Shown here piece after piece: positions 5,183-59,200 of a DNA stretch of 64,000 nucleotides (position 1 is the stretch's first letter; each line of letters opens with the position of its first letter). A model generated the notes under the pieces. That model did not search any database. It was not told the origin of the DNA and worked only from the letters and a program-made list of their open reading frames with translations. The translations under genes and the position numbers were made by a program. Source of the DNA: Bryoerythrophyllum caledonicum. Taxonomy: Eukaryota; Streptophyta; Bryopsida; Pottiales; Pottiaceae. The DNA is taken from positions 18,108,990 to 18,172,989 of the forward strand of contig OZ020518.1 of assembly GCA_963971425.1 (NCBI GenBank), given 5' to 3'.

Positions 5183-5272
5183 GGCTTAATGGATCAATGC
5201 CAAAAATTGGTAAAAAATGTTGATCAACACCTTTGGGAGCCAAAATATACAAGGCCTCCTCTGTAAAAGCTT

Positions 5273-13264: not shown

Positions 13265-13292
13265 TCCGTTGTGTAGATGTTTAGTAGGGGGA

Positions 13293-13868
13293 TTATTGTG
13301 GGTGGGGTGACGGACCTTGTGTCTTGGGATTGGTTTTGTGGGTGTGAACTTGGATAATTTCGGTGTAGAATTTGTGTTGAGTTCTTTGATAATATTGTGT
13401 CAATTTATTTGTGTTATGTGAAATGGTGTTTTGGTTGTGTCTTGGGAAGAGGTTTCTTTGGGGGAGCCATTTGTTGTAAGTGTGGTTATTGTGAGTCCAT
13501 TGGCATAGATATCTAGTGTAATTGTTTTCTATTTGGTTTTTATCTATTTTTTTCTTGTATTCGTGGTGTATGATGTTGTTAATGGGATAGGTGGTGGGGT
13601 TTTTGAGGATGTGGTTTGGGGGGTGGGGGTGGTGTGGGTGGGAGTGGGGAGGGTGGATCGATTGTGTGGTGATATTTCTTGGGGTGATGTCATTGTTTAT
13701 AGTGATGAATGGGTCTCTAATTGTATGAGAGTATGTATGTGCATTGGTATGTGTAATGGGTGGGGGGGGATATATTGGGTGACAAAAGAGTTGTCGTGCA
13801 ATTTTTAGGGCACTTTTAATAAGTTTTGATGGGGTGAAGTGGTAGGTTTTAAATTCTTCATTGTTCAT
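13293..13868 (-). pseudogene. LINE ORF2 linker between reverse transcriptase and RNase H
   Basis: A 191-codon minus-strand frame in a different phase from both neighbours. Composition is rich in His, Pro, Asn and Thr, with runs such as HPPHSHPHHPHPPN. Near the C-terminus, YTRYLCQWTHNNHTYNKWLP resembles a short chromodomain-like or linker sequence, but I cannot assign it. Position alone ties it to ORF2. The phase differences mean frameshifts on both sides. Confidence 0.5.
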
Positions 13869-13900
13869 GATATGTGTTCCGTTGGGTAGGGAGATTTGTT

Positions 13901-14965: not shown

Positions 14966-15465
14966 TTTGGTTTACCGAAGTGTTCTCCTATGTAGGAGGT
15001 TGAAGATTCGGAGTATATATTTCCCACTAGTGCGGTAGCATCTTTGGGGTATCCAAGATCCGTCATTATGGCTAAAAGTCTAGCGTGGTCAATAGAGCCG
15101 AAGGCATTTTTAAAGTCAACATATAGTATAAATATGTCTTGGTTTGTAAATCGTGCATCTTCTAATGCGGCTATTACTGCTTGGATTTGTCTAGTGGTGC
15201 TCCTTTCTGCGCGGAACCCCTCTTGACTATCATGTAGTATTTTATGTTTTTCGCCATATGATGATAGTATTGATGTGATTGTGCTCGTAAATAGTTTAAA
15301 GATGGTATTGGCTAGTGCAATAGGTCTATGGTTCGGTAGCATGGAGGGGTCTCCTTTTTTGTATAGTAGGATTGTTGTGCTTGTTTTCCATGAAGCAGGG
15401 ATTTGTTTTTGTTTATAGCAGTGGGAGAAGAAGAGGTTTAATAGTTTATGGAACCTTGGGGGCAT
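14959..15465 (-). pseudogene. LINE reverse transcriptase, N-terminal half
   Basis: Contains the LINE fingers and palm motifs: IPASWKTSTTILLYKKGDP, NHRPIALANTIFKLF, DSQEGFRAERSTTRQI and the first catalytic aspartate in FILYVDFKNAFGSIDH. The frame ends at 14,959, where the sequence continues in another phase with motif QRGTIQGD. Between 15,466 and 15,686 there is further ORF2 sequence in broken frames. Confidence 0.75.
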
Positions 15466-15686
15466 ATTTTTTAGGATAGAGTTCGGTATGTGGTCCGGTC
15501 CGGGGGCTTTATTATTACCTAGGTTACGTAGGCAAGTGTCATATGTAGCTTGATTAAAGTATGTGTGTAGTGGGGTTTCCGGGTCTCCTCTTTTTTCTAA
15601 TGTGAATCCGCCTAGGTCATGCCATGGATATTGTCGTACTGCGCATGTACATGTAGAGCGGTGGTCCGGTTGATAGTTGCATGTGT

Positions 15687-17250
15687 TTACCGTAGGTGTG
15701 TTGTTTTTTGTTTGTTGGTTAAAATTTCGTTTGCAATGTCTTCTGGGCTAGTTAGTGTATTGTTATATTGGTCGGTGATACAGTCTAGTGGTGGGGACTC
15801 CATGTTTTTGAATATTCTTCTGTTTATTTTCTTTGGGCTAGTTTCATATAGTTGTCTGTATTTGGAGATGGCTTTTCGAATGTTTTCTTGGATGTGTTTG
15901 GTGGTGATTTTTCGGGCTTGTATGTTGGCATTTTTTGCAATTAGTGCTATGTTATTTATCCATGTGTCGTGGGGTAGGTGTATGGGGGGTGGATTAGAGA
16001 TTTGTGTGTGTTGAAGGTTCCGGAGTTCGATGAGGATAGGATGGTTTCGCCATTGGGGGTTGTTATTTACGATTCTTATGGTTTTCCGTATAGTGTAGTA
16101 AGTGGTTAGATGTTGTTTCCATATTTTAGATAATTTACGGGGTAAATATCCACCTTGTTGTAATGTTCTATTTGTCATTTGTGGTGTGGGTTGGGCTTTG
16201 CAGGTCTGTTCAATGGTATTGGAAGTGTTGTTGATGAGAGTGTCTAGAGTGTGACAGGCTTCTTGCCATTGCTTTGGGGAGAAATGGTTATTAGTTTCTA
16301 ATTCGTTTATTAGGAAGTCCATGCGTAGTGAGTTTTCCTCGAAGAATTTTGTGTTGAATAATTCTATGTTATTTTGTGGGATGGGGTTGAGGATACGTAT
16401 TTGGTCATTATTTGTGTTGGTTGGTGTCCGGTTTATAAATGTGTTGTTTGGGATGTGGAGTTGTATAAGTGAGTGATCGGAGTTTAGATGAATGTTATTA
16501 TTTGTAGTGGAGGTAAATGTGGTATGGTTATTTGCACGGACGTAGAATCCATCAATTAGACTCCAGTTGTTATAGTTGTATCCTCCTTGTCTAGAGTATG
16601 TGGTGTTTGTGGGGATATAATTAAAGTTTAGGTTTTCTGTAAATTGTTTCCATTGTAGGTCTATTATTTGTGGTGGTGTGTGTTGGTTTCCGTTTTGTCT
16701 ACCTATGAGGGCAACGTCTCTATTGAAGTCGCCACATAGAATGTGGTTGTGGTTGGGGTTGTTGGTAATATATGTGGTGATGTTACTTTTGATGTCCTCG
16801 GTGAGTCTAATGTCTTTGGAGTGGGATGGCATGTATATGTGGTGGATTAGCCATGGTTGTAGTGGATGATTTAAAATTTCTATAGTTTGGAGGTATGGAG
16901 ATATGTTCATTGGGGTGGGAATTTTTTGACATTGCCTGGAAAGGCGTAGTTTTTGTGTATGAGAGTGAGGAGGCCTCCTCGGCCCGGTGTGTATGGTCTT
17001 CTTTGTTGTATGCATCGTGTTAGGGCACGTGTGTTATTGAAGATAAGTTTGTAGTTTGGAAATAGTCTTTGTATGTATTTTGTGAATTTTGTGGCCGATA
17101 TTTTTGTTTCTTGTATGACTATGAATGCCGGTGGTGCGTTAGTGTGTATAATTATGTTTTGTAAGTTTGGGAGCGCGGTGTTGAGGGATGAGGCGTTCCA
17201 TGTTATTATGCTTGTGTTGTTGTTGTTCGTATGTAGGTTATGGTTTTGTG
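15687..17250 (-). pseudogene. LINE APE-type endonuclease domain
   Basis: Apurinic/apyrimidinic endonuclease-like domain that nicks the target for primed reverse transcription. The N-terminal motifs ITWNASSL and VIQETKI are readable at about 17,210-17,100, ahead of the main 442-codon frame (17,015-15,687). That frame holds ILCGDFNRD, SLIDGFYV and LNSDHSLIQL, the metal-binding and catalytic signatures of this fold. The junction near 17,015 needs a frame change. The rest of the frame is a linker towards the reverse transcriptase. Confidence 0.75.
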
Positions 17251-17560
17251 GAGGGATGTGGTTCGGTGGTGGGGGTGGGTGTGTGTATTCCGGGAGGGGG
17301 TTTAGGCATTTTAGTGCCTCATTTATGATAATGTTAGGGAGGTAGGGAAATTTGTGTTTTAGTATGTCATTTGTTGGGGGTGTAGTTTGGTTGTGTATAA
17401 AGTCATATATATCTTTGTTTACCGATGTGTTATGGTTTATGATATTTAAATTATTTTCAAGAAATGTTGTGTAAGGGTGTGGGATACTAATGTGTCTTTC
17501 GGGTGGGTTTTGTAGGTTGTGTAAGGTGCGTAGGAGTGTGTTGGTCCATTGGGTTGTGTT

Positions 17561-18613
17561 TTATTTTTGTGTGTTTAAAAGTTGATTGCAGATGTCTATG
17601 TTGGGGTGTATAGTGATGGTTAGGGCATATAGGATGTGGGATGGATGGTGTTCGCTATGTTGGTTTATATATATGGCGATATGTGGATATGTATTATTAG
17701 TTTGTTGATGTAATATATGTGTGGGTTTGAAAAGGGGGGCAAATTTTTGGGCAATGTGTACGTATTCGGGTTGTAGTTTTATGGTATTTGGTATGATATA
17801 TGTTTTGGCATTCTTTTTATGCGAAGCGGGGTGTCTTTTTAATACGTTCGGCATGGGTCCTGGGTTAGTCTCTATGTCTCCTCCAATTAGTATAAGTAGT
17901 TTGTAGTAGATGGGTTTTTTGTTTTGTTTTAGAGTTTTTTGTTTTTGTATGTGGCTTTGGTATTTGTTTGTTTTTTGTTGTAGTTTTATGGTATTGTGTG
18001 TGATGTGTTTGTTGGTATTTTTCTTGTGTGGAGTAGGGTGTCTTTTTGGTATGTTAGTTGTGGGTCCCAGGTTGGTTTCTATGTCCTCTCCTAGGATTAG
18101 TAGGTGTTTGTGATATATATGATTGTTGTAAGGTTTAGAGGTTTTTGTTTTGTTTATAGATTTTTTAGTCTTTGTTATATTGGGGTTTTGTTTGTATGGG
18201 GGTATGTGGGTGTTTATATTTTGTATGTGGATAGAGAGTTTTTTCCCATTTATTCTTATAGTGGGTGTGATTGTGTATGTCATGAACTTATTATGTATCC
18301 TTGTGTTTATTTGTGTAGTTTCATTTATTTTATTAATGTTATATATTTTTGTATATGTTTGTTTGTTTATTTTTATTATTTTTGACCATGTGTGTATGTG
18401 ATTATGTTTGAGGATATTTGTGTATGGATTTATATTGGTATTTGAGGGGGTATTTAAGTATTTATGTGGATTTGTATAAGCTTTTGTTTTGGTGTTTGTA
18501 TTAGTATGTATTTTGGTATATGTGCTGATGTTCATACTTGTATTAGTGTTTGCATAAAGGTCTGTATTTTTGTCTTGTATATGTATTTGTATTTGTATTT
18601 GTATTGTACACAC
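17561..18613 (-). CDS. LINE N-terminal ORF2 region with two 2A-like motifs
   Basis: 350 codons. The first half is a low-complexity Asn/Thr/Ile/Lys region. Two related modules follow. In the upstream one (18,062-18,085) the motif reads DIETNLGP; in the downstream one (17,855-17,878) it reads DIETNPGP, exactly the 2A consensus D-(V/I)-E-x-N-P-G-P. Each is preceded by a short hydrophobic stretch (HLLILGE; YYKLLILIGG), as in known 2A peptides, and followed by similar sequence (KRHPTPHKKN / KRHPASHKKN). 2A peptides make the ribosome skip one peptide bond and so separate two proteins. The module repeat is 207 bp. The frame stops at 17,561, before the endonuclease. Confidence 0.65.
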   Translation of the reverse strand: MCTIQIQIQIHIQDKNTDLYANTNTSMNISTYTKIHTNTNTKTKAYTNPHKYLNTPSNTNINPYTNILKHNHIHTWSKIIKINKQTYTKIYNINKINETTQINTRIHNKFMTYTITPTIRINGKKLSIHIQNINTHIPPYKQNPNITKTKKSINKTKTSKPYNNHIYHKHLLILGEDIETNLGPTTNIPKRHPTPHKKNTNKHITHNTIKLQQKTNKYQSHIQKQKTLKQNKKPIYYKLLILIGGDIETNPGPMPNVLKRHPASHKKNAKTYIIPNTIKLQPEYVHIAQKFAPLFKPTHILHQQTNNTYPHIAIYINQHSEHHPSHILYALTITIHPNIDICNQLLNTQK

Positions 18614-18941
18614 AGAATTTGGTACAGTATTTGTTTTTATTTTTTATTTTGGTATAGTATGGATATTCCACATGTATGTTGTATAGCGTACACTTTGTGA
18701 GGTCTATGTATATTGTAATATGTTCTACCATGTATTCTATTGTGTATATCTCTATTTGTACGGTAAAAAATACTAGTATTTTGTAGTATAGGTGTATGGT
18801 GACTAGTATTGATATGATTTTGTAGTGTATATAGGTAGTGTCTAAGTATATTCTACTGCGGTCGTATTTTGTATAATACGGGTAGAATATTGAATCTTTA
18901 GTCTTGAGGTTGTTGCTCTTCACATTTTTGACGGGTCTTCT

Positions 18942-27906: not shown

Positions 27907-30842
27907 ATGTGTGTTCAACCTGCAACTTCCAAAGTGAAGATGTCAACGTTAGACCTGACGGAAGACCATGACTTCTACTACGGTGATGAGGACTACACAG
28001 AAGAGGGTGGCTATGAATCCGGTCAAGGTGTCGAATGTGAAGCACTCTCGGATGGCGATGCTTCCTCCAATAGTGGCGAAGAAGGGCAGCGAAGGGAGGT
28101 TCAGCAGGTCGACTACAGCCAACTCGAGCTGGCACAACGTGTACGAACCCGCGACCAGAATTGTCGGAGACATGGGCAACCTACGCGTGGGACACATGCA
28201 CAGGGATTCCAAGCGGAAGCACGAGGCATCGGGCTGGAGGCGCAGTCAGCAGCTGCAGACTTTGAGTCCCAAGGAGTGGGCAGAGGCACGCGCCCACTAC
28301 GCAGAGGCTTGCAACGCGGAGGTCGTCCCTGGCAATGGGGTGGGACTTTGGCCAGCTTACCCGGTGTGAGTGTTTTCACATCCCAATCCTCTGGGGGCTC
28401 GAGATTACACCCCCTCCTCAAGCCTACAAGCACAACACTGCCCATTCGTCAACCACGAACAAGGCAACAAAGACCGAAGAGGAATGGGAATTGGAGCAAC
28501 GAGCAATTGCAACGAGCACTGGCAGCAGTAGATGAAGGGAAGGTCATGAAGAGGGCTGCCCTGGAAAATAACATACCATATTCAAGCTTCCGCGATTGGT
28601 GTTATCGCGTTAGAAGAACTCGTAAGCGCGGCGTCAAGGCAGTTTTGAGTCCAGATGAGGAGGCCCAAATTGTACAGTATCTCATCACAATGTGTGACCG
28701 CGGCTACGGGCTGTCCCCAACTGCTCTGAAGATGAAGGTTTACAAAATCACCAAGTCCAGAGCCACGCCATTCAAGGACGGTATTCCCGGTGGCGGGTGG
28801 ATGCGGTGGTTCCGACGCCGTCACCCAAATTTGTCTGTACGTGCAGCCCAAGGATTAGAGAGTGCACGCGCACAAGCCCTATGTCCCGAGAATGTGCAAT
28901 CATTGTACGACAATGTGACTGAATTATACAACTTGCACAATTATCCACCCGAGCGTATCTGGAAGTGCGACGAGTCTGGCGCCCAAGCAGGTAACTTGCA
29001 AGTCCCATGTCTCAAAATTGAAAAATGAAAAACTGCCCAAACAAAGAGGTTGAGTACTTACAGCAATGATGGTGTGACAGGCAAGAACGGTGGCGGCATG
29101 GTCATGGCCAAGACCGGCGCCCGACATGTGCAAAGCATCATCCCAAACCAACGCGAGTGGCTCTCAGTGTTGGCCTGCGTAAATGCCGCTGGTAAGGCCA
29201 TCCCCTCCTTTTACATATTTCGGGGTAGAAGATTTAGACAAAATTATATACAATACTGTGAAGCAGGTGCTACCATGGCTATGCAACAAAGAGCGTGGAT
29301 GACAACATACCTTTTTCGCGCTTGGATCTCCCATTTCACTACGTCCATCAGGCGAACAATTGGCATATCACCTCAGCAACGTCATCTCCTTATCCTTGAC
29401 GGTCACAACAGCCATGTAACTCTAGATGTCGCACGAGCCGCACGGGGCGTAGGACTGGACCTAGTAAGTTTGCCATCACATACCTCACACGCGTTGCAGC
29501 CACTTGACGTTTCATGCTTCAAGCCCTTCAAACAATTCTTTAGAGAATACCGCGACTTCTGGATGTCGCGAAATGTAAACCAGCCTGCGAACAAGGAAAC
29601 ACTAGCTCAATGGGTCTCACTATCACTAAGGAAAGCTCTGACTGAATCCAACATTAAAAGTGGGTTTAGAGGCACAGGAATTTACCCTATAAACCGTCAC
29701 GCTGTGGATGAGTACTTAGCTCCCTCTGAAACCTACGCGCGGGAAGGAGGCACCAGCACTGCAGATAATGAGGGCAGCCGTGATGGGGCTTGGGAGGGGG
29801 TGGGCAGCAACCCTGGAATTGGCCGGCAGAGGGGGGTCAATGAAGGGGAAGAGGAACCACGGGAGGGCAACATTGAAGGAGGAGGGTTCAAAGAGAGAGG
29901 GGAGCTGAGCGCACCTGTGTGTTCAGCAGAATGTGAGCTCGAAGCAGACTTCAAGCAAGAACCCAACATTGGAACGCAACACTTCTTTGTGGAGGTTGAC
30001 CCGAATGATCCAGACGCCGGAGATGACGTTGCTGACCTTGATCCTGACATGGAGGAGCTAGACTCCATCACGCACTTCTTACAACTCCCCATCTTCGCTC
30101 CAAATCGAGCGCCAATCGTCGTGACCCCATAGTGGATTTTGCCAAATCCATCATCCTAACAAGCGAGGCGTACTATGAGGCTGCGGAGGGCATTCAGACC
30201 GCGCGGGAATTTGCAGTGCAAGAGAAAGAGCATCAGAAGCATGCACGGGAAGATTCAAAGAAGCGGAAGGCTGCCGAAAGAGAAGAGGCAGCAACACGTA
30301 AAGTTGCCAGCAGAGAGGAGAGCGCTCGATTGCGGGAGCAACGCGCCGCAGAGAAGGCCGCTACGTAGGCCTGAAAAATCGCAGAGAAGGAGGCAGCTGC
30401 GCGCGCGAAGGCGGCACGAGCATACGAAGCAGCACTAGGGAAGGCGGCTAGGGCCGCAGCGAAGCAAAAGCGTCGTGTCCAGCGTCAGGTGCCTCTTCAC
30501 ACGTCAAGGGCCTCTGAGAATGCAGAAGAGCATCATATTCCAGAGGGGCCGGAGGGGCAGGGAGCCTTTGTCGCGGGGCAGTTCAATCCTGGCGCTGGCG
30601 TCTCCCACTTCTCCACATACATGCCGCCTCTACATGGTGTCTCCTTCACGCAATCTCCACAGCTCCCACACCAACAGCATGAGCACTTCTTCTTCCCATC
30701 TTCTTCCTCCCTCCCCCCCCTCTCGCAATTTGACAGTCGCCCACATTCTATGACGCCCACCATGCAATATCCACTCCCGTTTCCACTGTCGCCAATCCCT
30801 GAACGCCCAAGGAGTCATTGTTCTTGGTCACAACAGGAGTAA
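27907..30842 (+). pseudogene. Pogo/Tigger-type (Tc1-mariner superfamily) transposase, broken
   Basis: Encodes a DDE transposase that would cut and paste DNA. The N-terminal part is acidic, then a psq-type helix-turn-helix (NWSNEQLQRALAAVDEG, MKRAALENNIPYSSFRDW) and a CENP-B-like region (GGWMRWFRRRHPNLSVRAAQ). The catalytic aspartates lie in KCDESGAQ, LILDGHNSHV and LQPLDVSCFKPFK. A long acidic tail and an Ala/Glu/Arg-rich coiled coil follow, then a Pro/Ser/His-rich end. Breaks: an in-frame TGA at 29,026 (or a short unspliced intron of about 50 bp around it), a frame change at about 30,130 (IVVTP to VDFAKSIILTSE), and two stops near 30,366-30,374. Terminal repeats and the TA duplication were not located. 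Confidence 0.75.
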
Positions 30843-32070: not shown

Positions 32071-32770
32071 ATTAGGGACGAGCTTCCGGAATGGGACGCG
32101 AACCGGAAGTGTTGGACGAATTCGCAGGTGCCGTTGAAGTTCCTTCTTGCGTATGTCAACCATGCTCGGGAAGAATCCTCGGGAGTTACCGCCACTGTCT
32201 GTGTACAAGATGGAAGCGCAATGCATCAGAGAATGGCCTTGGCGTCCTCGGAGTGGAATGTACCTTTCGCTCGGAGTGAACCCTCAACCGGCTAAGCGCA
32301 TCTGGAACTCCATCGTCAAGGCGTACTCGTCAGGAAGAAGTCGAAGATGTTTGTGATGCAAGATGTCCTACAAATCAACCAGCAGGTGAGGAAAACTACG
32401 CAGTGTATGTGTTTTGAGAATGAGCTTACGATTAAGCTGCCGATTTGTAGGCTGTTCAGGCAGGAATCGACTCGCTTGCGCTTCCTCAGACGGACGATGG
32501 AGCTGCGACATTAGAGCAGTCCGACGAGTATTGCAGAAAGCTCAACGACTCGCAGAGAGACGCGGTGAAGAGCGCACTCGCAGGCTTCCTCGCGTCGGAG
32601 GGGAAGCCTCACGTCAGGATGGTGCAAGGTCCGTTGGGGACTGGGAAGACGGCGATGCTGGTGACGTAGATCTCCGTGCTCAGATTTCTCCAGTACCGGA
32701 CCCTATCTCAGCTCCGACAAATGCTGCGGTGCTGGAGGTTTGCAAGAGGATGATGAGCTTCTTCTCCGGG
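32071..32770 (+). pseudogene. Superfamily-1 helicase (UPF1/SEN1-type) remnant
   Basis: The second exon-like segment (about 32,450-32,770) reads LNDSQRDAVKSALAGF, then the Walker A motif GPLGTGKTAML (family consensus GPPGTGKT) and, after a stop at 32,667 and a frame change, APTNAAVLEVCKRM, which matches motif Ia of these RNA/DNA helicases. The first segment (32,071-32,390) includes ELPEWDANRKCW and a stop. Only the start of the ATPase core is present, and the frame is broken twice. It ends at a tandem duplication just left of the MULE. Confidence 0.6.
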
Positions 32771-32842
32771 GTTGAGCCGCAGCAGTGCTAGAGGTTTGCA
32801 AGAGGATGATGAGCATCTTCCCCAGGGTTGAGCCGCAGCAGG
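32731..32842 (+). repeat. 56-bp tandem duplication, two units
   Basis: GCTGGAGGTTTGCAAGAGGA at 32,731 recurs as GCTAGAGGTTTGCAAGAGGA at 32,787, and both units continue through a GGTTGAGCCGCAGCAG end with a few mismatches. It duplicates the helicase motif Ia region. Confidence 0.75.
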
Positions 32843-32909: not shown

Positions 32910-32918
32910 CCCAGGCGG
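32910..32918. repeat. MULE target site duplication, left copy
   Basis: CCCAGGCGG lies immediately left of the terminal inverted repeat and is repeated exactly at 43,281-43,289. Nine bases is the usual duplication length for Mutator-like elements. Confidence 0.9.
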
Positions 32919-33228
32919 CCCGCTCACTAGGTTCAATCCGTGTTCGGGCTGTCAGGCCCTGTTTTGGTCTTCTTTCCGTCTCCCGCGGCCGTCCCCCAAA
33001 AGCATCTTTCCGCCCCCTTGTCCGCGTCTTTTCCTTCCAGCGCCTCTCGCCCTTTCCGAGATCCCTGCCCGATCCATCCCGATAAGCGCCTGCCCGCCCC
33101 TGCTATCGGCGCAGACCCCGAGACCCGATAACACCATATCGGCTATCGGCCTAGGAACGGATCCACGCCCACGTGTACCGGTGGGACCCATCCACCCCCC
33201 TCCGCCGCCGATAAGCCAGTATCATCCG
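32919..33228. repeat. MULE left terminal inverted repeat, 310 bp
   Basis: Starts CCCGCTCACTAGG and ends CAGTATCATCCG. By eye it is identical to the reverse complement of 42,971-43,280; every position pair checked sums to 76,199, so there is no indel. CGATA or TATCG occurs six times in it. Confidence 0.92.
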
Positions 33229-34134
33229 TTACCTGTCACAATCATCCATCGCAGGAGGGTTGCAATCAGCCGGAATCCAAATCGATTGAATCTGAAAGCA
33301 ATCATTTTTTGCATAGGGTTTCGATGGAGCTATCGCGGATTGAATGACAGGGCGGTCTCTTGATTTGGTCGAGGCGATGTGCTCTCATGGTAAAGCGTGT
33401 GATGGTTTTGATAGCTATAGTTCTGTGGTTGGCGGCTGGTAGTCTCGATAGGAGAATTAGAGTCTCATCATTGTCGCCATCAATTTCAAATGTTCCGGCG
33501 GCGTTGTTCAAATGGCGAAGGCTGCTGTTGGCTCGTTTTCTCTCTCATTTGCAAACCCGTTTGTTTGTACTCCCTACTATCGTTTGCGCTGTTCTTTTGC
33601 GAGCTCGATCTCAGAGAATTCCTTGACATCTTCCATCTCCGACGACGCCTTCTGGTAAGCATGCAAACCCTCCCGCTCTCATTCAGTTTGTAAACCTATA
33701 GGCTCATATCGAGTTGGGAAGTGGACGCAGGAAGTTGATAGTTAGGGTTTCTGGAACTCGATATTCTCAGTACTAGTTTTTCTGGAATCATACTGAAGTT
33801 TATCTGTAGACGATAAGGATTTTGGGGTTTAGCGATCTGTCGGATTTGTTTAGCCGTATACGATAAGGCACTCAGGTGATTTTCTATTCTTACGTTGTCA
33901 GTGAGCGTGAGCGTGGAGTTCATGATAGAATATACTGTGTCGATTGGAGTACGAAAGGAGATAACGATTGGAATTCCAAGTGCCGCGCTGATAGGAGTAC
34001 CAAGGGAGATACCGTTTGGAATACTAAAAGGCTTAAACTTCTCGGTTTTGGTTTAGGGTTTATAGCTTCTCATGTACCACGTTTCATAATAAGTTTCATG
34101 ACTGATTTGCTCTGTATGCTGTAGGTCTGCAAAA
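33229..34134 (+). promoter_or_regulatory. 5' region of the MULE Ulp1-domain gene
   Basis: 906 bases between the terminal repeat and the first ATG. No other gene is supported. About seven CGATA/TATCG sites were counted by eye, mostly in the last 450 bases. It should hold the promoter and leader; no clear TATA box stood out. Confidence 0.4.
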
Positions 34135-37100
34135 ATGCCGAGATGCAACTGCGTCAGTGAGTTACCGAGAGGGGTGGAGGCTGTTCCCACCCACCCGATT
34201 TACAACGATAGGCTGAAGAGGATAGAGCAAGTTTTCAAGGTGGAGGGGCATTACTGGCAAGACAGCTGGCATCCTCTGACGGCCAGGAGAATGATTCTGG
34301 CGATGCACGGGCCAGACTCGCAGATTTACAAGACCAGTGAACTGTCTCCGGAGAAGAAAGCTTTTCACTGTCCGTATTGCAAGGAGGTCGGGCAGAAACA
34401 TAGGATCAATCTGCACCTGAATCACGCGAAGTGCCCTGGGCGACCTAACAGGAAAATGCCTGCTTATCCGAACCTCGACATCAAGAATCAACCTCAGTTC
34501 ATACAGAAGATGGTGGATTGTACAACAGTGGACGACGTCATTGCTGCGTTCCAGCATATCGTCCCACTCGATAGGTCTAGCAGGAAGCCGAGAGGCGGCG
34601 GGAAGAGAGCGGCCGGGACTGGATCTCGGGACACTCGCGCAAGAAAGCGAGGTGCGTCGACCTCTCGGGCATCGAGACCAGTCCGATTGGAAGCCGATGA
34701 CGAGGAGTCGTCATCGGATGACGACGATCAGTACGAGGCGGGCGAGGATGGCGATAGGTCTGAGGACCACGAAGATGTCGATGCTAGGCCCATGGACATC
34801 GTCGCCTACAGCGTTCCAGCGACATCGGAAAGTGGGCACTTCGTTTCCGGGAATGTCGCTTCCAGCGCCCCGATAAGCCAGGCGATTGTTACATCAAGTG
34901 CTCGTGGTCGGGACATGCACTCGATAAAGCGAGGTGCATCGTCCTCTCGGGCATCGAGAGCAGTGCATGCACAGCCCCCGTCCGATACGACCACATCGGA
35001 TGAGGAGGACCAGGACGGGTCGCGAGAGGATAGCGAATCCTCTCAGGCGCGCGAAGATACCGATGCGCGTCCCAATGAAGCGATCCCGGTCAGGCATCCA
35101 GCGACGGCGAAGGGTGGGCAATGCAGCTCCGGGAACGTCGAGAAGAGGCCTACGATAGGCCAGGAGGTTGCAACACCCTCTCGGCGTGCGAGGAGCCCCA
35201 AACCGAACTTGAAGGCGCGTGCGATGTGTCCCTTTGACAGCATCACTGCCCCGAATTTCCATGGAGAAGACGATCCATATTCCGTAGGGAATGCAGCGGA
35301 AGTGCGCGAACAGTACAAGGTGGTGCGGAGGGACGACGGACCTAGCGCGACTCTCGCCGATATCTCCGACGAGAGGTTAAGTATCAGACAATACCTCGCG
35401 GGGGGCGCTAGGCCGAGGTACAGTAACCCGGACAGAGAAGCCAGGGCGCGGGAATTGGAGGAAATGCGCATTCGCGAAATAGAGCGCATTCGTCTCGACG
35501 TGGACGAAAAGTACGCGGCGTCCATCCAAACCGACATACCTCCAGTGAGGCGAACCCGAACCCCTTTGTGGATTCTCATGAACAATGGTTTGCTGTCTGA
35601 AGAGGAGCGTCGCAGCATATCGTCCGAGAATCATCTACTTCAGATGATGCAGGACGTTGTGGCGCAAGGGCAGTGGCGTTTTACGTCTGCTATCGGGCAA
35701 GCGTTCTGCACGCAAGCCATCTCCACCGACGAGCTAAATGAGTGCAAGCCTATCGTGGAGCTGGCGCAGTTTCCGTGGAGCGAGAAGCTGAGAATTCGGT
35801 GGGTGGCTACTGTGAGGGAGACGTGGCTATTTCTTCAACGAGAGAAGGAGGCGGAAGAATGGGAGGTCTCGGGAAGAGCTAGGGCCGCCAGGATCCAACA
35901 AGACCGCGAGGCGGAACTGGTCTCCCGAATTGCCTCCTACGACAAGGAGCGGTCTGTGGAATGGGAGGCCTTGGTGTGGGACTACAATCTCCTGTTCCAC
36001 TTCTGCGCCGATAACCCCTTCATTCGCGAGCTCTTGCCGCCCATGCCATGGAAACACAACTCCGAAGAGGCGAGAGTGGTGTTATCGATCTTGAAGGCAG
36101 CAAGTATCGATCCCATGCGTCCTCCACGAGAAGCGAGGCTCCTGAAGTGCTGGTTTATCGCCAACGGTTTCAGTAACCGGTTTGTCCCCCCTCTATTATC
36201 GTCATCTCTTTTACCAGCTATTTTAGGGCTTCAATGCTATCGGACTCTCGTTCCAGTTCAGAGTTTTTTGTCGTTTTAACAACTACTAGATTGGAGGTAT
36301 CGCTTATGAGTTATCGGCTGACTGTTGTTTGAATTGCAGTGGAACAAATATGTGCCATCCCCACGCGCGAATGACGCCGCTGATGATTGATAGGAACTCC
36401 GATAACGCACATTCGCCTTGGGATGGCGCATTATTTCTGTACGAGAAGCTAGGGAGGTTTCTCTTCGGGCATGTGGAGTACGCGGATGATGATCCGGAGG
36501 TGGTAGAACTCCATCAGATGCTCGTTAACGAAGCGCGTGAATGCGGCAGAGCTCTAATACAGTTCACCCATCACGTAAGAGCGCGGACAGTCATCGACAT
36601 GGCCTGTAGACACGAGGTCCAGTTTGAGCTGAGGTGGTGTCAAACCGATCTGGCGTCGTACATGCCATGGGAGCTTCTCGAAGAGCAATGCCTGTTTCGG
36701 GAAGACATCGACTTACTATATGTCGGCAGTGGATCGAGTAAGCCGTCCGCCACATCGTTTACGATCTTCACTTACAATTTTATGCATATCGTGTGTGAGT
36801 ACTTATGTTTATCCAATGTCACGTGTGTACAGATATGGTAGGTGGTCACCTTATCGGAGTCCATGACGGGCCCGAGATGCAGGCTTGTCTCACGGCGATA
36901 ACAAGTTTCTGCCGGAAGCAATGCGCAGCATCGGTGTCACGTATTCGATCCGAAGACGTCACGGAGGGTTCTTCTCGGAATACTCGAGACATCGAGGGTG
37001 CCCAGGCTCTTATCGCCGTCCACGAGGGAACTCCGATTGGGCTCGGAGAGCGACGAGAACCTGCTCAAAGAAGGGAGCACGTAGAGAAGGTCTCTCTCCC

Positions 37101-39319
37101 GCCGCATATCGTGGTGGAGGACGTCGCCGATAAGAAAGATGAGAGTCCTTCAGAAGCTGCATTTCGGGAGGGGGAGGAGACGATGGACGTTGACTCCGAG
37201 AGGGAGGAGATCTTGGGTAAGGAAGGAGATGCCAGTATCCCCGACCCCGGGTTCGATGTCGTCCCGAATTTAAGCCGTGGGAGCGAGGAGCGAGAAGCCG
37301 ATGTCACACCTGACAACGCCGAGGTCAGCCAGGAAGCTGGTCACCTAGCTGACCGGCGCACTACATCTGCAGGCGATATGTCAGGCGTCCCTTCTTACAT
37401 GGTCCCGGTTCCTATCGAAGCCGATAAGGAATGTCGGGCTAAGGAAAACAACGATCCGCCTATCGTTGAGAGAGATTCGCAGCCATCGGAGCCTATTGTG
37501 TCTGAAGAAGAAGCGGCAATGCCTTCGGAGCCTACCGTACCTGAAGAAGGAGCGGCAACGCCATCGGAGCCCCATGTGGCGGACGACGGGGACGAAACGC
37601 CTCTCGGATGGACCCAGGTAATGGCTGACCTCACGCTTGGAGATGGGTTGCTAAACCTACACGGGAACGGAACCCCCGAGGACTTACGATCATTACACGG
37701 GGTAAGAACACAACGAGCCGTGAAGGTTGCCGAGGGAATAAATAGACAAAACCGTCCTTTTAACCTATCGCGATATCCGCCTATGTATGCTATGTTCTTT
37801 GCTTCCCCTCGAATCCGTGTCATAGAGACTACGCCCCTAACGACTATAGATTCTGTGTTTTTGTAGGACGGGTTATCGGAACAATGGAGAGAGCGAACTC
37901 TAGCGCAAGTCATCGAGGGCGTGATGGAGAAGAGGGAGTCCATTGTGTATCATCCAGGACTTCTGGAATCGCTCGCGAAACGCGTCCCTGATAACCCACC
38001 CCCGTATCAGTGTATGTTGCCCGAGAACCGCCACATCTGCACGTCTCGGATGCCCGACTGGAATAGAGAGCCCACTCTATGCTTCGAGGCTGCAAGTCAC
38101 TCTCCGGAGCTGGTCGAGCAAAGTTTGGGTCTTATCGTCGAGCTTCTGAAGCACAGGTTTAGTTTTTTTACTCTTATCGTCCGATACTTTCCGATTTGCG
38201 ACCTCAAGTATAGTTCGTGTTCGATATCTTGTGAACGATAACCCCTTAATACGATATGACTTGTACTGTACAAATGCACGTATCGTTTGCTAACTCACAG
38301 TGTCATTTCTGTCCCGCAGACCCCCTGGCAAGAAACTCGATGACATTGTAGACGATATGCTCGTCTTCGGCCCGGACAAGAGGAAAGCTGTGACCATATC
38401 GCTCAATCGTGCCGACTGGGGCTGCATTCTCCAGGACGGGCGAGAGCTCGACGGCTCTCTTATGGACTTCCTACTCCGGCATATCGTATACCGCGCTGAC
38501 CCGGAGGTACGACGGCACTACGCGTTGACTCACAACTGGATGTCTAATTGCATGCAGTCGAAAATCGATGACGCAAGCACATGGGACGAAGTCGTGTATT
38601 ACATCTATCGTACCGTGCGTACCGTATCTCGACTCGAGGACACACTAGTGGTGCCCTACCAGAACATGGGTCACTGGAGCATATTTGTCGTGGAGGACTC
38701 CCAGACGATACAATTCGACACGTTGAATATGCACCGGGACGAGCGAGCGGGCAACTTCGCGTTTGTGTTGCACATGGCGTGGGCGATGGCGAGGGGTGTT
38801 TCGCCTAAGTCGGCCATGTGGAGGAAGTGGCAAGGACGGAAGGTGAAGAGGTTGCCGATTCCAAAGCAAGCGTTGTCGTGGGAGTGCGGTTACGTGTCGT
38901 GCTTGGCATTCTGGCAGTACCTCGTCATACGTGGGAGTAGTCCATCCGCCGATCCGGATTTGCTGCAGAACCACAAATGGCAGGACTGGGCGGGGTCAAA
39001 AGCGCGACTGTGGTTAGTTCAGGCGTTCTATCTCGAGCTTATTTCCCCGCCCAATGGGTTTTCTAAGCCTACAGTTGATGTCTGGAGTCCTGTACAGGCA
39101 TATGTTCTCGCCAGCGAGAACATGGAGGGCGATGATGAAACCATGGAGGTGAGCCCGGAAACAGGAAGGAGGAATACGACGAGGGCTGCTATCGACTTGG
39201 GTATCGAGAAGACGATAGCATTGCAGCTCAAGGGATGTCGTGTGAGGCAGCCTCTCGGCGAAGCACCTAGGGAAGGGGTGAAGAAGCCGGGCACGAAGAG
39301 AAAGCCGAAGAAGAAGTAG
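34135..39319 (+). CDS. MULE-encoded protein with zinc finger and Ulp1/C48 protease domain
   Basis: Five exons: 34,135-36,179, 36,340-36,737, 36,833-37,701, 37,867-38,156 and 38,320-39,319. All junctions are GT-AG with matching phases, and the total is 4,602 bases (1,533 aa). The N-terminus has a possible zinc finger (HCPYCKEV...HLNHAKC, residues ~78-103). The next ~250 residues are acidic and disordered, with two copies of a roughly 90-residue module (KRGASTSRASRPV / KRGASSSRASRAV). The C-terminus is a Ulp1-type cysteine protease: His1319 (NMGHWSIF), Asp1334 (QFDTLN) and Cys1390 (SWECGYVSC). Ulp1 enzymes cleave SUMO or related conjugates. In VANDAL elements, proteins of similar plan counteract silencing; a like role here is inference. 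No MULE transposase motif is present. Confidence 0.85.
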
Positions 39320-39728
39320 GCTCAGAGCTTCTTCTTCTTGTATTTTACATGTACGATAGGTTAGGCTCAGAGTTAGCGGTAGGACGATAGGTGTGTATAC
39401 ATTCATTTTCCGATCAAATACCGGACAAATCTGTACTGTACATTCCAAAATGTACAAGAATGTGTTGGTAATGAAATGATCTCCCGTTGTCTATCTATCC
39501 TGGCTATCGTTTATCTATGCATAATAATGTGTATTTGTCCTACCAATCCTGTTTGTATCCTATCGAGGACTATACCTCCCGCGATAAGAACTATAGGAGC
39601 GAGCGCAGTATACCTCTTCCGATAAGATGAACATATGTAGGAGAGGACGATGGACCACAATATGGCAACCCGATAACGCGGTGGCGTTATCGGATGTCTA
39701 AATTAAGAATATAGCCTATTGGCTATGC
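39320..39728. promoter_or_regulatory. Convergent spacer dense in CGATA/TATCG
   Basis: A 409-base tail-to-tail spacer between the two MULE genes. Eight CGATA/TATCG pentamers were counted by eye, where about one is expected by chance. Both genes must end transcription here. AT-rich stretches follow the Ulp1 gene stop, but I could not assign a definite polyadenylation signal. Confidence 0.5.
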
Positions 39729-42700
39729 TTACTGCGTAAGGTTCTCGGGAGCACGAGCCGAGGAATGTCGGTAACCTCGCGAATCTAAGAAATCGCGCAG
39801 CCTTTGAAGCCTCATTCCGAGCCCGTCTCGGTTACAAGGGAGGGAATGAGCAATCTGCAGCAGTGGATGAAGCATGCCGGCATCAATATCTGCCTCGATT
39901 CTGGACAATGTCCCATCCATACTTCGTAACCCGGCGTCCAAGTGCCGCGCCAGTATCGGTTGCCGATACGCCTTATCGAGGAGCTTCAAAATGAGTTGGT
40001 GCATGCGGTCGAAGTCATCTGACCACACACTTCCCAGTTCTCGTGTTGGCGATGTCTCGAAACATACATCTCGGTCACATGATCTTGAAGGCAACATATC
40101 GTTGGCGTCGATATCGAGAACAGGCCGTAGGATTTCCGATCTCTGGTCGTTGGAGAGCAGGAGATTGGTCATACCTCCTTGGGCCGTGCCGCGTAGAGAG
40201 CCGAGGTATCGGGCAATCTTGCCCGAGGCGAGGTCGGGTCTCGTTAACTCGAGTACTTTAACTTGATGCTTGCAGATGTTCCCTTTCTGGGAATACACAC
40301 ACTCGCAGACGGCCCACTCCGTGCAGGGATTGTATACAGCGTACGCAATGTGACCTCGTTTCGAAGACCTAACCAAAGCCGGTCCTCCAATATACATTGG
40401 CAATACGACGTTCTCGTTTGGGATAGAATTGGCTTGGATAATGGAGTTTACCATAATCTGCCTCAGCTTCTTGTTCTTCACGAACCCGTTCTGTTTACTC
40501 CAGTCGGTGTAGTCATATTTCTCAATGACATTCCCAGTGAGCTCATAGATAAGCCAGTCCATCCGTCGGCCGATAAGCTTCCTTTTCGACTGTCGCAAGA
40601 CGGATTTCATGTTCGAATGGAATGACTCTATCGCAGCTGTGGTATCCTGGCCCGCATGAGGGATCTTTCTGTCTCCCACTACCCACATATGGATTTTCGG
40701 CATCCATTCCTTGTCAAAATACTTCCAGTACTCCTTTGCATCTGGAATGCGTGCCTTTGCCTCCATATAGACGTGTTGAACCCACTCTAACAACGTCCAG
40801 ATCCTCGTAGGAGGTCCTCTCGTAGCAGGGTCATCGCAATCACTTGGTGTCTCCGACATGTACATAAGATCCCCTACAGTACGCAATGCAGCAGCTCTCG
40901 TCTCCATGTCTTTCAACTTCGCACAAGCGTTCTTTTGCCAGGCTCGACGCACGTGCCACAAGCATAGGAACAGAAACGACCGAGGCCAAACTTCCCTGCG
41001 ATAAGTAAAAACACGATAACCCATCAGATAACCCGGCACGATACGAGAAAGCCGGAACGCCGATATGTCGGATCATCCCGACCTGAACCTGACGTACAAA
41101 AGGCAAGATATGAAACCAGAGGGGGTATTCTGCGAGTCTCTATAGTTTCTTACCGGAGTGAGTTGATCTCGTTATCGGCGTCGTCGAGTACGAATGCTGT
41201 AGGTCTCCATCTTGGGTTGATTTGCTCTAGCTTCTCTTTTAGAGCGTGCATCCAAGGCACTAGATCACTTTGTTTTGATCTCGCGGTGATTATAAAGGCG
41301 ACGGGCACGCCATTCCTCCAGTCGTCGAACACCATCATCGTGAATAGAGGGTACTGTAAACAATAGGAAATATTAGTACTAGAAGATACGAATCGATGTT
41401 GCACAAGTTTGTAGATCGGATGAGTAGACACATTCAGAGCGAGTCGTAAAGGCACATACCTTCTTGTTGTTTGTAGCGAAGGTCCCGTCTATCGCAATAA
41501 TGCTATCGTGCCCATAGTTGAGCATCATCCGCAGCTGAAAAGGGGTCTGAATCCCTATCACGAAGGGCACGTTGTCAGAGTTCAGGACCCCTTCTATCTT
41601 AGTCCCCGGATCCTGGTAGTAGAATACCATCTCTCGATTCTCTCGTACCCACATTCTAACACTCTCGGCATCATTATGGTGCTTCATGTAGAGTTCTTGC
41701 GCACGGACGCCACAAATGTTCCGAATATCCTCCATGCTCAGGAAACAATCCCGAGAAGGTGTGAGCGTGCCCTCATCGCGTCCTTTGAGTACCAACCTCT
41801 GATGCTTTAGTTTAATCGATTCCATAGGAACGAGCTCGTCGTACTGCCGTAGAACCCAATCTCTAACCTCCTCCGATATGCACTTTCGGAATCTGAGTCT
41901 CCCCCTGGTGATGTTTACCTTATCGTGAACGATATTGCCCTCTCTATCAACGTGATCTTTGCAGAAGTACCCTATCTCGGCGATAGATGGTAGAAAGTAG
42001 TACCTCTTTACATAGAATCTACATTGGCAGCCCACCTTCATAGACCCTCCCTCCTTCGCGTCAGTAGCACGAGGGCCTTTCTGACCACGTCCTGAGTATA
42101 TCTGTTTTCCTTTCCGATTGTATCGTCGTGCTGTGGGTGCCATATCGGGAGTGATATCGTCGATCTTGTCTCTATTGTCTTGGGGACCGTATTGACAACG
42201 CCATCTGCAACGACAGCCGAGAACTTTTTGTGATGGATACAGTGCGCAGTAGACGATATGACAGTAATCCTCGTAACAGCAATGACCATCTTACCGTTGA
42301 AGCTCGATGGGGCAGTTCCAGCGATAGTGGGTCTTATCTCCCACGTTCGTGGGGTCGAATTTATCCCGCACGAATGTGGTCTCGACGTCCTTTCGGCATG
42401 ATTGCTCACCGTTCACGAAATCCATTACTCTATCCCATGGAATGTAGGCGATAAGCTTCGATTGCTTTCCCTCACCGGGGTCATGATCAGGAAGACCATG
42501 GAGGTCATCAACAGCGGACTTCGTCTCCCTCTCGGCCTCAAAATTCCACCTCAGATCTTTCCAAGTTAGCAAACCAGGTGGAGGCTTATGTAATGCATCA
42601 CGCATCCTAAGAACCTTGTGACCATGCTTCATGAGGTACCGAGCGTGCGGGCCTTCTCGGATAGCTGTATCTAGATCTTGCACACCCTCCTCACGCACAC

Positions 42701-42836
42701 CAGCAGGCTTCTTTCGACCCTGCCGCCTCCATCCTCTCGCTGCCACCCCGTTATCGGCTCCACTCCGAACTGGTACCTCACTTGCATCCACACCTGGGAA
42801 GACCGGCGGCAGGAGATTCAGATCCAGGAACTCCAT
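39729..42836 (-). CDS. MULE transposase (mudrA type)
   Basis: Four exons on the minus strand: 42,836-42,295, 42,204-41,460, 41,353-41,154 and 40,995-39,729. All introns are GT-AG with matching phases; total 2,754 bases, 917 aa. An N-terminal Cys/His region (HYRWNCP, GCQCRFYVK, FCKDHVDREG) resembles the zinc-binding domain that precedes MULE transposases. The DDE domain has Asp420 (AIDGTF) and Asp486/487 (VLDDAD), with the CxxH of the family at 507-510 (CLWHVRRAW). The catalytic Glu is not assigned with certainty. A SWIM zinc finger lies near residues 720-735 (CECVYSQKGNICKH). It would bind the terminal repeats and move the element. No stop or frameshift was found. Confidence 0.88.
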
Positions 42837-42970
42837 TCCCGCTGCCTATCGGTGACACTCTACTCTCCCGCGAGCACAACAAATGGCGCCGCAATGAACA
42901 CGGGCTGGGGAGACGTTGCAAGCCGAGTCCAACATAAATCATCTACATCATCTCCGCTCCTCGGATTGCC

Positions 42971-43280
42971 CGGATGATACTGGCTTATCGGCGGCGGAGG
43001 GGGGTGGATGGGTCCCACCGGTACACGTGGGCGTGGATCCGTTCCTAGGCCGATAGCCGATATGGTGTTATCGGGTCTCGGGGTCTGCGCCGATAGCAGG
43101 GGCGGGCAGGCGCTTATCGGGATGGATCGGGCAGGGATCTCGGAAAGGGCGAGAGGCGCTGGAAGGAAAAGACGCGGACAAGGGGGCGGAAAGATGCTTT
43201 TGGGGGACGGCCGCGGGAGACGGAAAGAAGACCAAAACAGGGCCTGACAGCCCGAACACGGATTGAACCTAGTGAGCGGG
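42971..43280. repeat. MULE right terminal inverted repeat, 310 bp
   Basis: Reverse complement of 32,919-33,228 with no difference noticed. Identical arms of this length point to a recent insertion. The 134 bases between it and the transposase ATG hold the promoter of that gene and one TATCG. Confidence 0.92.
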
Positions 43281-43289
43281 CCCAGGCGG
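43281..43289. repeat. MULE target site duplication, right copy
   Basis: CCCAGGCGG, identical to 32,910-32,918. Confidence 0.9.
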
Positions 43290-56236: not shown

Positions 56237-59200
56237 CTAGAGGTCGAAGCTCACAGAGTGGAAATGAAACTGCGCTTGCCGGTTTTTGAAGTTCTGGGAG
56301 CGGCATTCCAATGCTACGCTTTCTTGAAGGCCTTTGGATCCACAGATAAGAACGCCGGTCTCTTCTCCGGTAATCGTCGATGCGGCAGCGTCGAAGATGT
56401 CTGCAGACAATGCAAGCCAAATCCTGTGAGGTTTCTCGGACAAAGAAAAATGCCATCAAAAATTTCTCACTCTAATGGTTTCTCAAGCACCAGACCTCGG
56501 AAATTGGGTCGGGAGCCTTTGGTAACTTGGCACATGTCCATGAGTGTTGCAGGATGGGCTTCTAGATCAGGTTTTGCCGGATCTTCAGTGCTACTGATGT
56601 TGATGTTGGCCGTCGAGGTTTGCGGCACGGAAGGGCTGATGTAGCTCCATGCCGGGTTCCAAAGGAGAAGCACGGCACCTCCGCAGACGACGATGCCCAC
56701 TCCAGTGCTGACAAAGAACAGAAACACGTCCAGAGCGAGCGGAAACGGACTCTTGTAGAGGTTGAAGAGGCCGGACATGAGAACAAATCCTGCAACTGAC
56801 GAGAGTATGACCGCCACCATCAAAAGATTTTGGCTCGACGCGGTAGGAGTCAAGCTGGAGATGGTGTCCACGGAGTCGGCTTCTTTCTTGCTGGTGCTGC
56901 AAGTATCTTCGAAGTCCAGCACTTTGGAGTCGAATTGCGTGAAGTCGTCACAGATCATGGCGTCGTCGACTCGCGTGACGAAAACCTTGACTTCCAGGGT
57001 GAGGGAGTGGGGGTCACCGTTGGCGAGGCGTGGTAGGATTTGTGCAGGGCGGATGTCACGCAGAGTGGACAACTCGGAGACGCTGCGCACACACCATATC
57101 ACTTGCACGTGAACCGGCAATCTCTCCTGCTTGAGCTCGTGGCGCTTCAGTAGGTCGTTGAGAATCGCCAGAAAGGGAGTTATCCCTGCCCCGCCCGCAA
57201 TCAACATGAGGCTCTTGTACCTGAATTACCAGGGAATCGATCTCAAGTTAGAAACGTTCCTGAAGTCATGGTTTACAGAATCGTTTCGGGATGTGTGAAA
57301 GATATTACCTTAGGAAATAGTCTGATTCGTGCCCGTAGGGCCCCTCAGCGTGCAGTTTGAGCGCGAATGGACACTCCAGCCTGGGGTTGACTGCTTGAGG
57401 GGCGAGATTCTCAAGAATGACGCTGTGGAGGCCATGCGTCCAGTCTCCCAGCGGCTTGATGCAGATAGAGATCGTGTTGGCGGTGTTGAGCGAGCTGGAT
57501 GCGCTGCTGAAGGGGTGCCATTCCAGGCGTGAGATCCCGGGGACGTTAATGTACACGAAGCTCAATGCGTTGTACTCAAACCCTGCAGATCGAAGATCAT
57601 GTCAGGTGCAATGTTTCACGCCATGGAGTGCATGATGGAGCTGGGCATGCGATTGACCGAATCATACCTTGTTTCACGGGTATCTTGAGCTCCACGATCC
57701 CACTGGGCAGCACCTGCGCCGTCACGCCACTCAACCGTTTCCGCGACTGCACCATCCGCAAGAACCTGTCGATGAAGAAGAGGAAGACGCCGCCCATGCA
57801 CTTGCCCATGTTCCCTTTCCCGACATGCCACGCATAGAACGCGAACAGCACAATGTAGAGCTGATGTGTGCCGTAGAACAAGTTGAAAAACCGCGTCCGC
57901 ACGGGAGCAAACGCGGTGACCCACATGAGAATCCCCGCCATCGCCCCCACAACTCCAGGCAGATTCGCAATCCCTTCTTGAGAGTATCTCCACTCCATTA
58001 TCTGCTCAAAAAAACAAACTTGTTCAAATCCACAACTCCCAAGAGAAACTAGGGTTTCGCGAGATGTGTCCATCACATACCATGTGGGTTTCGTGCCGCG
58101 AGCTGTAGTAGATACAGTAGAGGACGCCGTGCATCGTGAGCAGCACCATGGTCAAGTGCCCCAGCCATCGATGGTACCGCACAGCATGCTCAAACGGCAC
58201 ATGAATCAAGCGCAGAATCGGCGACCCTCGCGTCACCGGCAGAAAGAGGAGCGTCATGACGAACGGGATCACCTTCCCGAACAGCTCCCCGGACTTGTCC
58301 AGCTTCGCTTGCCATCTGCGAAACACCAAACAAATGAACCTTCCGAACGAGACTTACACCATGAGATCGACTGATCAAGCGGAGTCGACGGACTTACTTC
58401 TTCTCGAACCCCGGAATCTCGTCCCCGTGGTTGATGCTGTCGAAGCGCGGCACGGTCAAGTTGGTGGTGAAGCAGACGACGACGAAGAGCACCAGCGCGA
58501 TGCCGAACAAGTCGATGGCGGTCAGAATACCCAGCGGACTCCGCACCACCAGCGGCTGCGTCCATATGTTGCGCGTGAAGCCTCGCCATAGCCTCTCGAG
58601 CTTGGACCTCTTGCTGTCGTTCACCTCCAGCTCCCTGAAGACGTCGAATCACACCATCAAGCACATGGAAAGAAGCTGCGGTGATGTACGTACGACGCGA
58701 TATTCATCAATATGCTTTACTGTGCAGTACGATCATGCCGTTCACCACGCCTCTGGTGGAGGTCCGGTCTCTCTCATGCGGAAAGCGAAAGTGGGGACCC
58801 CCCAACTCGGCACTTATTATGCACGCTCGCCAAAAGCGAACAGTAATCGAGAAGAAAATTATGCAAACATAATCTTGCAGTTGACCCTCATATCGTGATG
58901 AGTCAGACCGCAAAACTGCCCTCATGATCGGTCTCTGATTGTTGACCTTTGCTCATTGAGTCCAACTAATCAAAAGAATGGAAAATCAATCTAGACATCA
59001 GATGAATTAGTGCTATTTCTGTGATTAGACTGGATAGATCCGACTCTGAAGGCGGAGATAGACGAAATCCTGTCTGTATCTAGAAAAACGTCAAGTCAGC
59101 TCTGAACGATTGTGAGAAAGCCAACTGTCAAAAACACGTCGTTATTCAGATTAATGAGTGAATTTGGTGACGAGGAGATGATTGGAACTTTATAACTGTG

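Follow-up and report, generated by a model that had tools for sequence, protein, structure and literature searches.

The analyzed window is a stretch of 64,000 nucleotides from Bryoerythrophyllum caledonicum (contig OZ020518.1, positions 18,108,990 to 18,172,989). It contains a Mutator-like transposable element (MULE) at positions 32919-43280, called here element A as a copy of family A, which carries an excess of the pentamer CGATA (counted together with its complement TATCG). The terminal inverted repeats (TIRs), target-site duplications (TSDs), genes, and other parts of this element are as follows (coordinates of the window; family B is a sister family in the same genome).

32910..32918, + strand: left 9-bp TSD CCCAGGCGG, adjoining the element end
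32919..43280, no strand assigned: complete MULE (family A copy), 10,362 bp, 104 CGATA/TATCG sites
32919..33228, + strand: left TIR, 310 bp, 6 CGATA, at 33080-33213
34135..39319, + strand: Ulp-like gene (gene 1), 1,533 aa; exons 34135-36179, 36340-36737, 36833-37701, 37867-38156, 38320-39319
34369..34440, + strand: N-terminal finger CPYCKEVGQKHRINLHLNHAKCPG, the candidate region for DNA binding; family B is identical at 14 of 24 residues
36180..36339, + strand: intron 1 of the Ulp-like gene, 4 CGATA; its family B counterpart holds a CGATAAGRGA array
38157..38319, + strand: intron of the Ulp-like gene, 6 CGATA, 36.8 per kb
38320..39068 (end approximate), + strand: Ulp1/C48-like protease region; His (GHWS), Asp, and Cys (SWECG) follow one another in this order
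39320..39728, no strand assigned: spacer between the convergent genes, 409 bp, 8 CGATA
39729..42836, - strand: MULE transposase gene, 917 aa; exons 42836-42295, 42204-41460, 41353-41154, 40995-39729; 22 coding CGATA; PF10551
42971..43280, - strand: right TIR, 310 bp, 6 CGATA, identical to the left TIR
43281..43289, + strand: right 9-bp TSD CCCAGGCGG, adjoining the element end

The original prediction, made from the sequence without database searches, had placed the ends at 32919 and 43280, with 310-bp terminal repeats. Both are reproduced: the TIRs form a 100% complementary inverted repeat, and CCCAGGCGG is found on both sides, as expected for MULEs, which duplicate about 9 bp of the target. 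The transposase contains the MULE domain PF10551 (E 1.3e-13, 51.6 bits vs. a cut-off of 27.6). Two convergent spliced genes are modelled with open frames, and element A is apparently a young, intact Mutator-like transposon. The model of the Ulp-like gene is predicted from open frames and splice sites, without transcript evidence; it yields the protein length of 1,533 aa given earlier, and the gene has a homolog in family B. A 56-bp tandem duplication (89% identical) is present at 32723-32834, directly left of the element end.

The gene 1 protein has the predicted N-terminal zinc finger, whose CxxC...H...H..C pattern is kept in family B. The Ulp1 domain of the original prediction is made plausible by the order of His, Asp, and Cys and by the convergent position of the gene, as in Arabidopsis KI-MULEs; the Pfam match, however, is weak, as the C-terminal part in A matches Peptidase_C48 with E 0.014 and 15.6 bits, below the cut-off of 20.7. 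A and B agree fully in GHWS, D, and SWECG. For a two-sequence profile of A and B, the best solved-structure match is SENP2 (E 0.031), with the His and Cys-Gly motifs aligned, although A alone did not find SENP2. In A, Gln is located six residues before Cys; the B copy has a stop at the same place. The assignment to Ulp1 is plausible but not proven.

The whole 1,533-aa protein matches no Pfam-A family at E up to 1. The search with the full protein found nothing, while exon 1 alone retrieved one protein, P0002 (82% identical); no relatives were found in a prokaryote genome collection (one scan) and viral contigs (two scans). A single-sequence fold of the Ulp1 exon had a mean predicted local distance difference test score (pLDDT) of 35 and was not used for fold search. 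The Ulp-like coding sequence also contains a 39-bp tandem repeat (37482-37571) and an internal duplication (34626-34682/34908-34964), which recall the peptide repeats in the variable regions of VANC proteins of Arabidopsis VANDAL elements.

Excess of CGATA in Element A

The 104 CGATA sites of element A comprise 46 sites in 3,006 bp of non-coding DNA (15.3 per kb) and 58 sites in 7,356 bp of coding DNA (7.9 per kb). The earlier hand count of 46 non-coding sites in about 3.0 kb is matched exactly, together with its parts: 6 per TIR, 7 more before gene 1, 18 in the seven introns (6 of them in 38157-38319, the mid-element intron that is the densest part of A), 8 in the spacer, and 1 more before the transposase. 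The flank on the right (43.3-44.4 kb), described as nearly free of the word, contains one site. About 6 non-coding sites had been expected; the excess holds, while the expectation itself is a little higher (8.6 +- 2.9, highest 21, in 500 dinucleotide shuffles). The word was said to be packed into non-coding DNA, and it is indeed denser there, but not restricted to it, since 58 of the 104 sites are coding.

The excess stands against shuffled controls in both coding and non-coding DNA. In coding DNA, dinucleotide shuffles yield 14.9 sites on average and at most 27. Synonymous-codon shuffles, which preserve the protein and its codon usage (1,000 per gene), yield 7.9 sites for the transposase gene (maximum 16; 22 observed) and 10.4 for the Ulp-like gene (maximum 21; 36 observed), so that coding CGATA is approximately threefold above this control. 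Among the 512 pentamers, CGATA ranks first in element A as a whole, in its coding part, and in its non-coding part; in the rest of the window (53.3 kb), it ranks 478th of 512, with an observed/expected ratio of 0.54 (29 sites in 53.6 kb). The CGATA observation itself is thus confirmed.

Against the dinucleotides of element A, the observed/expected ratio of CGATA is 4.22. The 15 one-base neighbours of CGATA, considered in A and in B, reach at most 1.97 (CGAGA, the strongest neighbour in A), and this lack of a comparable rise in the neighbours points to a sharp recognition site. G or C is found at the second base after CGATA in 88 of the 104 sites. The two orientations are represented by 50 and 54 sites with no evident runs; helical phasing was tested in A and none is evident; and no motif arrays are found in the family A element, arrays being seen in family B alone.

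Copies of Family A, Sister Family B, and Decay of Resident Copies

In the 437-Mb host genome, the best-scored 48 of 1,937 candidates from the transposase search are all at least 97% identical over the last exon. Thirty of these loci were fetched, and all have 41-46 CGATA in 4,269 bp. Twelve of them, the window copy included, are identical over these 4,269 bp, which indicates a recent spread of the A lineage.

A separate search with the transposase gave P0001 as its sole match, a distant one, and P0001 used as a query led to family B (best-scored 66 of 1,401 candidates; 30 loci fetched). All 30 loci have 18-27 CGATA in approximately 3.9 kb. One copy was read end to end (L069 with L070 and L071, C1:33,342,600-33,355,599). 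It spans 9,938 bp between ends that align with the A ends and contains 64 CGATA, compared with 3 in 3,062 bp of flank; no target duplication is evident at this copy. CGATA is again the first of 512 pentamers, with an observed/expected ratio of 4.15. Gene order and orientation are the same as in A: the transposase exons are 68-72% identical to those of A, and the protein of the second, convergent gene is homologous to that of 1,533 aa (28% identity in the N-terminal part, 39% in the C-terminal part). Hence family B, a related MULE with a homologous protein, has the same CGATA excess, and the original prediction, which relatives with this protein and no enrichment would contradict, is not refuted on this point.

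The distribution of sites in family B has its own features. CGATAAGRGA units are repeated in a row within intron 1 of the Ulp-like gene. In L006 and L069, this array is bordered by Ulp exons; in L003, it falls within a gapped alignment to these exons. L003 and L006, two of four distinct places fetched by a genome pattern, are arrays beside Ulp-like protein matches. The TIRs of B, 612 and 642 bp long, contain 2 and 3 CGATA, respectively, a lower density than the B average. At position +5, at the right edge of the word, A is present in 51 of 64 B sites vs. 37 of 104 A sites; the B word is longer on its right than the A word. Near the second gene of B, sites in L003 and L006 are also spaced by 27 bp (27-bp repeats, perhaps coding), and peptide repeats and the motif may expand together there.

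In three exon stretches of B, we observe 19 CGATA vs. about 7.1 by synonymous shuffles; one stretch is beyond all 1,000 shuffles, while the counts of the other two were reached by 25 and 59 of 1,000. Two of these stretches hold one stop each, and a fourth (3 sites vs. 0.9) was left out, being in the wrong frame with 7 stops. When the transposase genes of A and B are aligned, 11 of the 32 CGATA positions in A coincide with 11 of the 22 in B, which leaves 11 new sites in B; by chance, 18% of CG-containing pentamers would be retained. The alignment suggests turnover of CGATA at a kept density, with the rest of the B density apparently maintained by new sites.

Across the whole genome, clusters of three like-oriented CGATA within 75 bp number 2,170 vs. 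869 for the reversed pattern (approximately 2.5 times); these counts include overlapping matches, those of one array being counted separately. We sorted 100 listed places, which cover C1 as far as 19.3 Mb, by hand, according to their sequence signatures and how near they lie to known copies: 23 belong to family A, 33 to family B, and 44 are other, by eye mostly short tandem repeats. The control would predict 40 such other places, not far from the 44 seen, so families A and B about account for the excess on that stretch. High density of the word is family-specific by shuffles, pentamer ranks, and triple clusters, the compared families A and B both carrying gene 1. The 19-bp tandem repeat CGATAAAGGAGCAACGTGT or close variants are seen at 12 of the 100 places (C1:5693745, 6031742, 6095713, 6128554, 6145961, 6163038, and neighbours) and could be a third CGATA-bearing repeat family.

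Resident copies of both families show C-to-T decay. Private changes per site in 18 distinct A sequences are 0.072 in CG, 0.093 in CHG, and 0.025 in CHH, a three- to fourfold bias (1 of 30 loci, L027, was dropped; if kept, the rates are 0.091, 0.125, and 0.050, respectively). In 23 B copies, they are 0.28, 0.27, and 0.14, a bias of about twofold (7 of 30 loci were dropped as more diverged or belonging to a subfamily). This is the mark of CG and CHG methylation; hence, resident copies are, or were, methylated, and the host seems to methylate the family. Decay of the CHG type, along with gene content, suggests a host that is probably a land plant. Shared changes in A copies are without CG bias (1 CG vs. 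8 CHH; Fisher P 0.012 vs. private changes, with small numbers and uncertain polarity). The CpG observed/expected ratio is 1.07 in A and 0.99 in B vs. 0.47-0.81 in the neighbouring transposable elements and flank measured; to the right, individual 2-kb bins with host genes go up to 1.04. These values fit lineages that were little methylated while active, with copies silenced later; protection by the motif does not follow. In the passages of PMC10398659 that concern it, VANDAL21 is described as re-silenced when VANC21 is absent.

Other features of the window lie on both sides of the element. A Gypsy-type retrotransposon (3407-9754, + strand) has its own methylase and a histone-reader-like finger, with RNase H and integrase domains between the two.

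ORF 5267-6643, + strand: C-5 cytosine DNA methylase domain of the Gypsy-type element (PF00145, E 9.5e-9)
ORF 9071-9754, + strand: C-terminal PHD finger of the Gypsy-type element (E 2.2e-11)
11168-18643, - strand: element of the non-long-terminal-repeat type (RVT_1, E 1.8e-12; RNase H-like ORF by eye)
27907-30129: pogo/Tigger-like DDE_1 element with open frames (PF03184, E 4.9e-24)
56470-58703, - strand: host ferric-reductase-like gene (PF01794, E 4.4e-8, in ORF 57600-58151)

Possible Roles of the Word

The best explanation, to which we would give an even chance, is self-recognition of the VANC type, with the gene 1 protein binding CGATA and relieving silencing. The transposon would mark its own DNA with a short word, having the core CGATA and a preference for G or C at the second base after it; the second protein would bind this word by way of the N-terminal finger or of a neighbouring region. 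Family specificity would come from the multitude of sites in one element instead of a long recognition sequence, as for VANC in VANDALs. The bound protein might then relieve host silencing (CG/CHG methylation) of the family, and its Ulp1-like domain perhaps strips SUMO (small ubiquitin-like modifier) from silencing factors. We infer all three steps, i.e., binding, relief of silencing, and the protease step, by analogy and from sequence patterns. A further, less likely possibility is a sequence-specific anti-silencing system independent of VANC: a finger-plus-SUMO-protease protein would read CGATA, codons would have been rewritten so that the whole element serves as a binding platform, and in the sister family the word edge, arrays, and protein would have shifted together.

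Several observations weigh against self-recognition of the VANC type. DUF1985, the marker of VANC, is contained in Pfam-A, and the 1,533-aa protein gives no Pfam match up to E 1; the Peptidase_C48 match in A is sub-threshold (E 0.014), and Pfam lists none for the family B stretch. Dispersed sites in both orientations (50/54) and coding sites are unlike VANDAL21. Two of the four pattern-fetched places (L001, L002) contain a different repeat with no match to the element genes. A and B share sites only slightly more often than chance predicts (P 0.02 with CG-containing pentamers, 0.07 with all pentamers). The CGs of the motif decay like other CGs (7/88 vs. 34/470 in A, 14/50 vs. 165/428 in B), and by this test no standing protection of the motif is seen in resident copies. 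Finally, shared changes in B carry the CG/CHG bias, so that the B lineage did not simply escape methylation. The VANC-like system of the original prediction is favored by the sharp enrichment of a single word and by a sister family with the second protein, while no VANC domain is found; overall, the earlier interpretation is partly supported.

The word might instead be a site for the transposase or for an accessory transposition protein encoded by gene 1, serving end pairing or target choice, which we consider unlikely. Each A TIR does have 6 CGATA within approximately 135 bp, and A and B have kept the core word along with the transposase (about 70% identical). However, the sites are found throughout the element, in codons and introns, with the densest part in a mid-element intron; B has few sites in its TIRs (2 and 3) and the array in its Ulp intron; and 104 sites are unneeded for end binding. 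It is also improbable, to a similar degree, that a host factor (a transcription factor or chromatin opener) binds CGATA and keeps the element expressed, gene 1 doing something else. A sharp word with flank preferences suits any DNA-binding protein, and DREF of flies binds TATCGATA via a BED finger; still, CGATA is under-represented in the surrounding 53.3 kb (0.54 of expectation), the word is found in two families that share gene 1, and its right edge has changed within the same host, as expected from co-evolution of an element protein and its word. Both these explanations are weakened by the spread through codons and introns, the few sites in the B TIRs, and the change of the word within one host.

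That an element protein binds CGATA as a repressor, copy counter, or localization factor, with VANC-like specificity and no anti-silencing, has a smaller chance again: the sequence informs on recognition rather than outcome, and resident copies show CG/CHG decay, but the A lineage has multiplied very recently and the best-studied system of like anatomy among those compared, in the relevant passages of PMC5735166, is anti-silencing. Composition, codon bias, mutation bias, or chance is hardly credible as the source, for although the CpG-rich element (1.07) lies beside CpG-poor transposable elements, so that a naive genome background exaggerates the excess, this excess is still 4.2-fold against its own dinucleotides, neighbours with the same CpG are not comparably raised, and the synonymous shuffles, with protein and codon usage fixed, are exceeded, which, together with the pentamer ranks, rules out composition and codon bias as the cause.

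Comparison With Known Systems

In the passages of Hosaka et al. (2017, PMC5735166) on Arabidopsis VANDALs, VANC21 and VANC6 bind short words and remove methylation and silencing. Element A resembles the VANDALs described there in being a MULE with a second, fast-evolving protein beside a more slowly changing transposase and a dense short word in its introns, spacer, and ends. Related VANDAL families differ in the word, and tandem arrays in a VANDAL21 intron resemble the family B array; the VANDAL words given are YAGTATTAY and AGTTGTMC, compared with CGATA here. Unlike in VANDALs, where the word is mainly non-coding, tandem, and in one orientation, it is also coding here (58/104) and present in both orientations (50/54), with arrays in B alone; the second protein has an N-terminal finger and no DUF1985 found; and the TIRs are long and identical (310 bp) rather than absent or short and degenerate, although some VANDAL-clade elements do have TIRs, as stated in part of PMC6446971. 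Given DUF1985, the long TIRs, and the distribution of the word, we do not class the element as a VANDAL; it may well work like one.

MULEs with Ulp1 genes, with and without TIRs, are known (sections of PMC2528002). In KAONASHI (KI-)MULEs and other ULP-carrying MULEs of Arabidopsis, melon, rice, and grapevine, the Ulp1-like gene is likewise reverse to the transposase, and TIR-bearing MULEs of melon and grapevine are reported to carry ULP (sections of PMC2528002 and PMC13317346). Ulp1-carrying VANC genes exist, and Ulp1-carrying VANDALs also recognize motifs, according to parts of the latter review (PMC13317346). What the relevant sections of PMC2528002 and PMC13317346 say on ULP-carrying MULEs contains no mention of CGATA or of enrichment at the synonymous level. 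Compared with these MULEs, the protease region here is too diverged for the Pfam cut-off, and CGATA as an element word was not met in a limited literature search.

TnpA of maize Spm/En is similar as an element protein that binds a short repeated word of its own element and promotes demethylation; it differs in belonging to a CACTA element, with 12-bp sites near the ends, and in having no known Ulp1-like domain. Maize MuDR/MURA shares with A the MULE transposase domain, the 9-bp duplication, and long TIRs; its second gene is, to our knowledge, unrelated, and we know of no peppering of MuDR with a motif. The synonymous-codon signal offers a route to detect such systems from sequence, i.e., a transposable element whose top pentamer beats its one-base neighbours in both coding and non-coding DNA. 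If the proposed mechanism holds, a SUMO protease tethered to the transposable element would put the missing step that follows binding into a form open to test. Arabidopsis VANDALs, together with TnpA of maize Spm, provide the best-known examples of transposons that reverse the silencing of themselves alone; a further system with a word of its own, a different protein architecture, and long TIRs would then show that self-tagging with a short word is a general solution.

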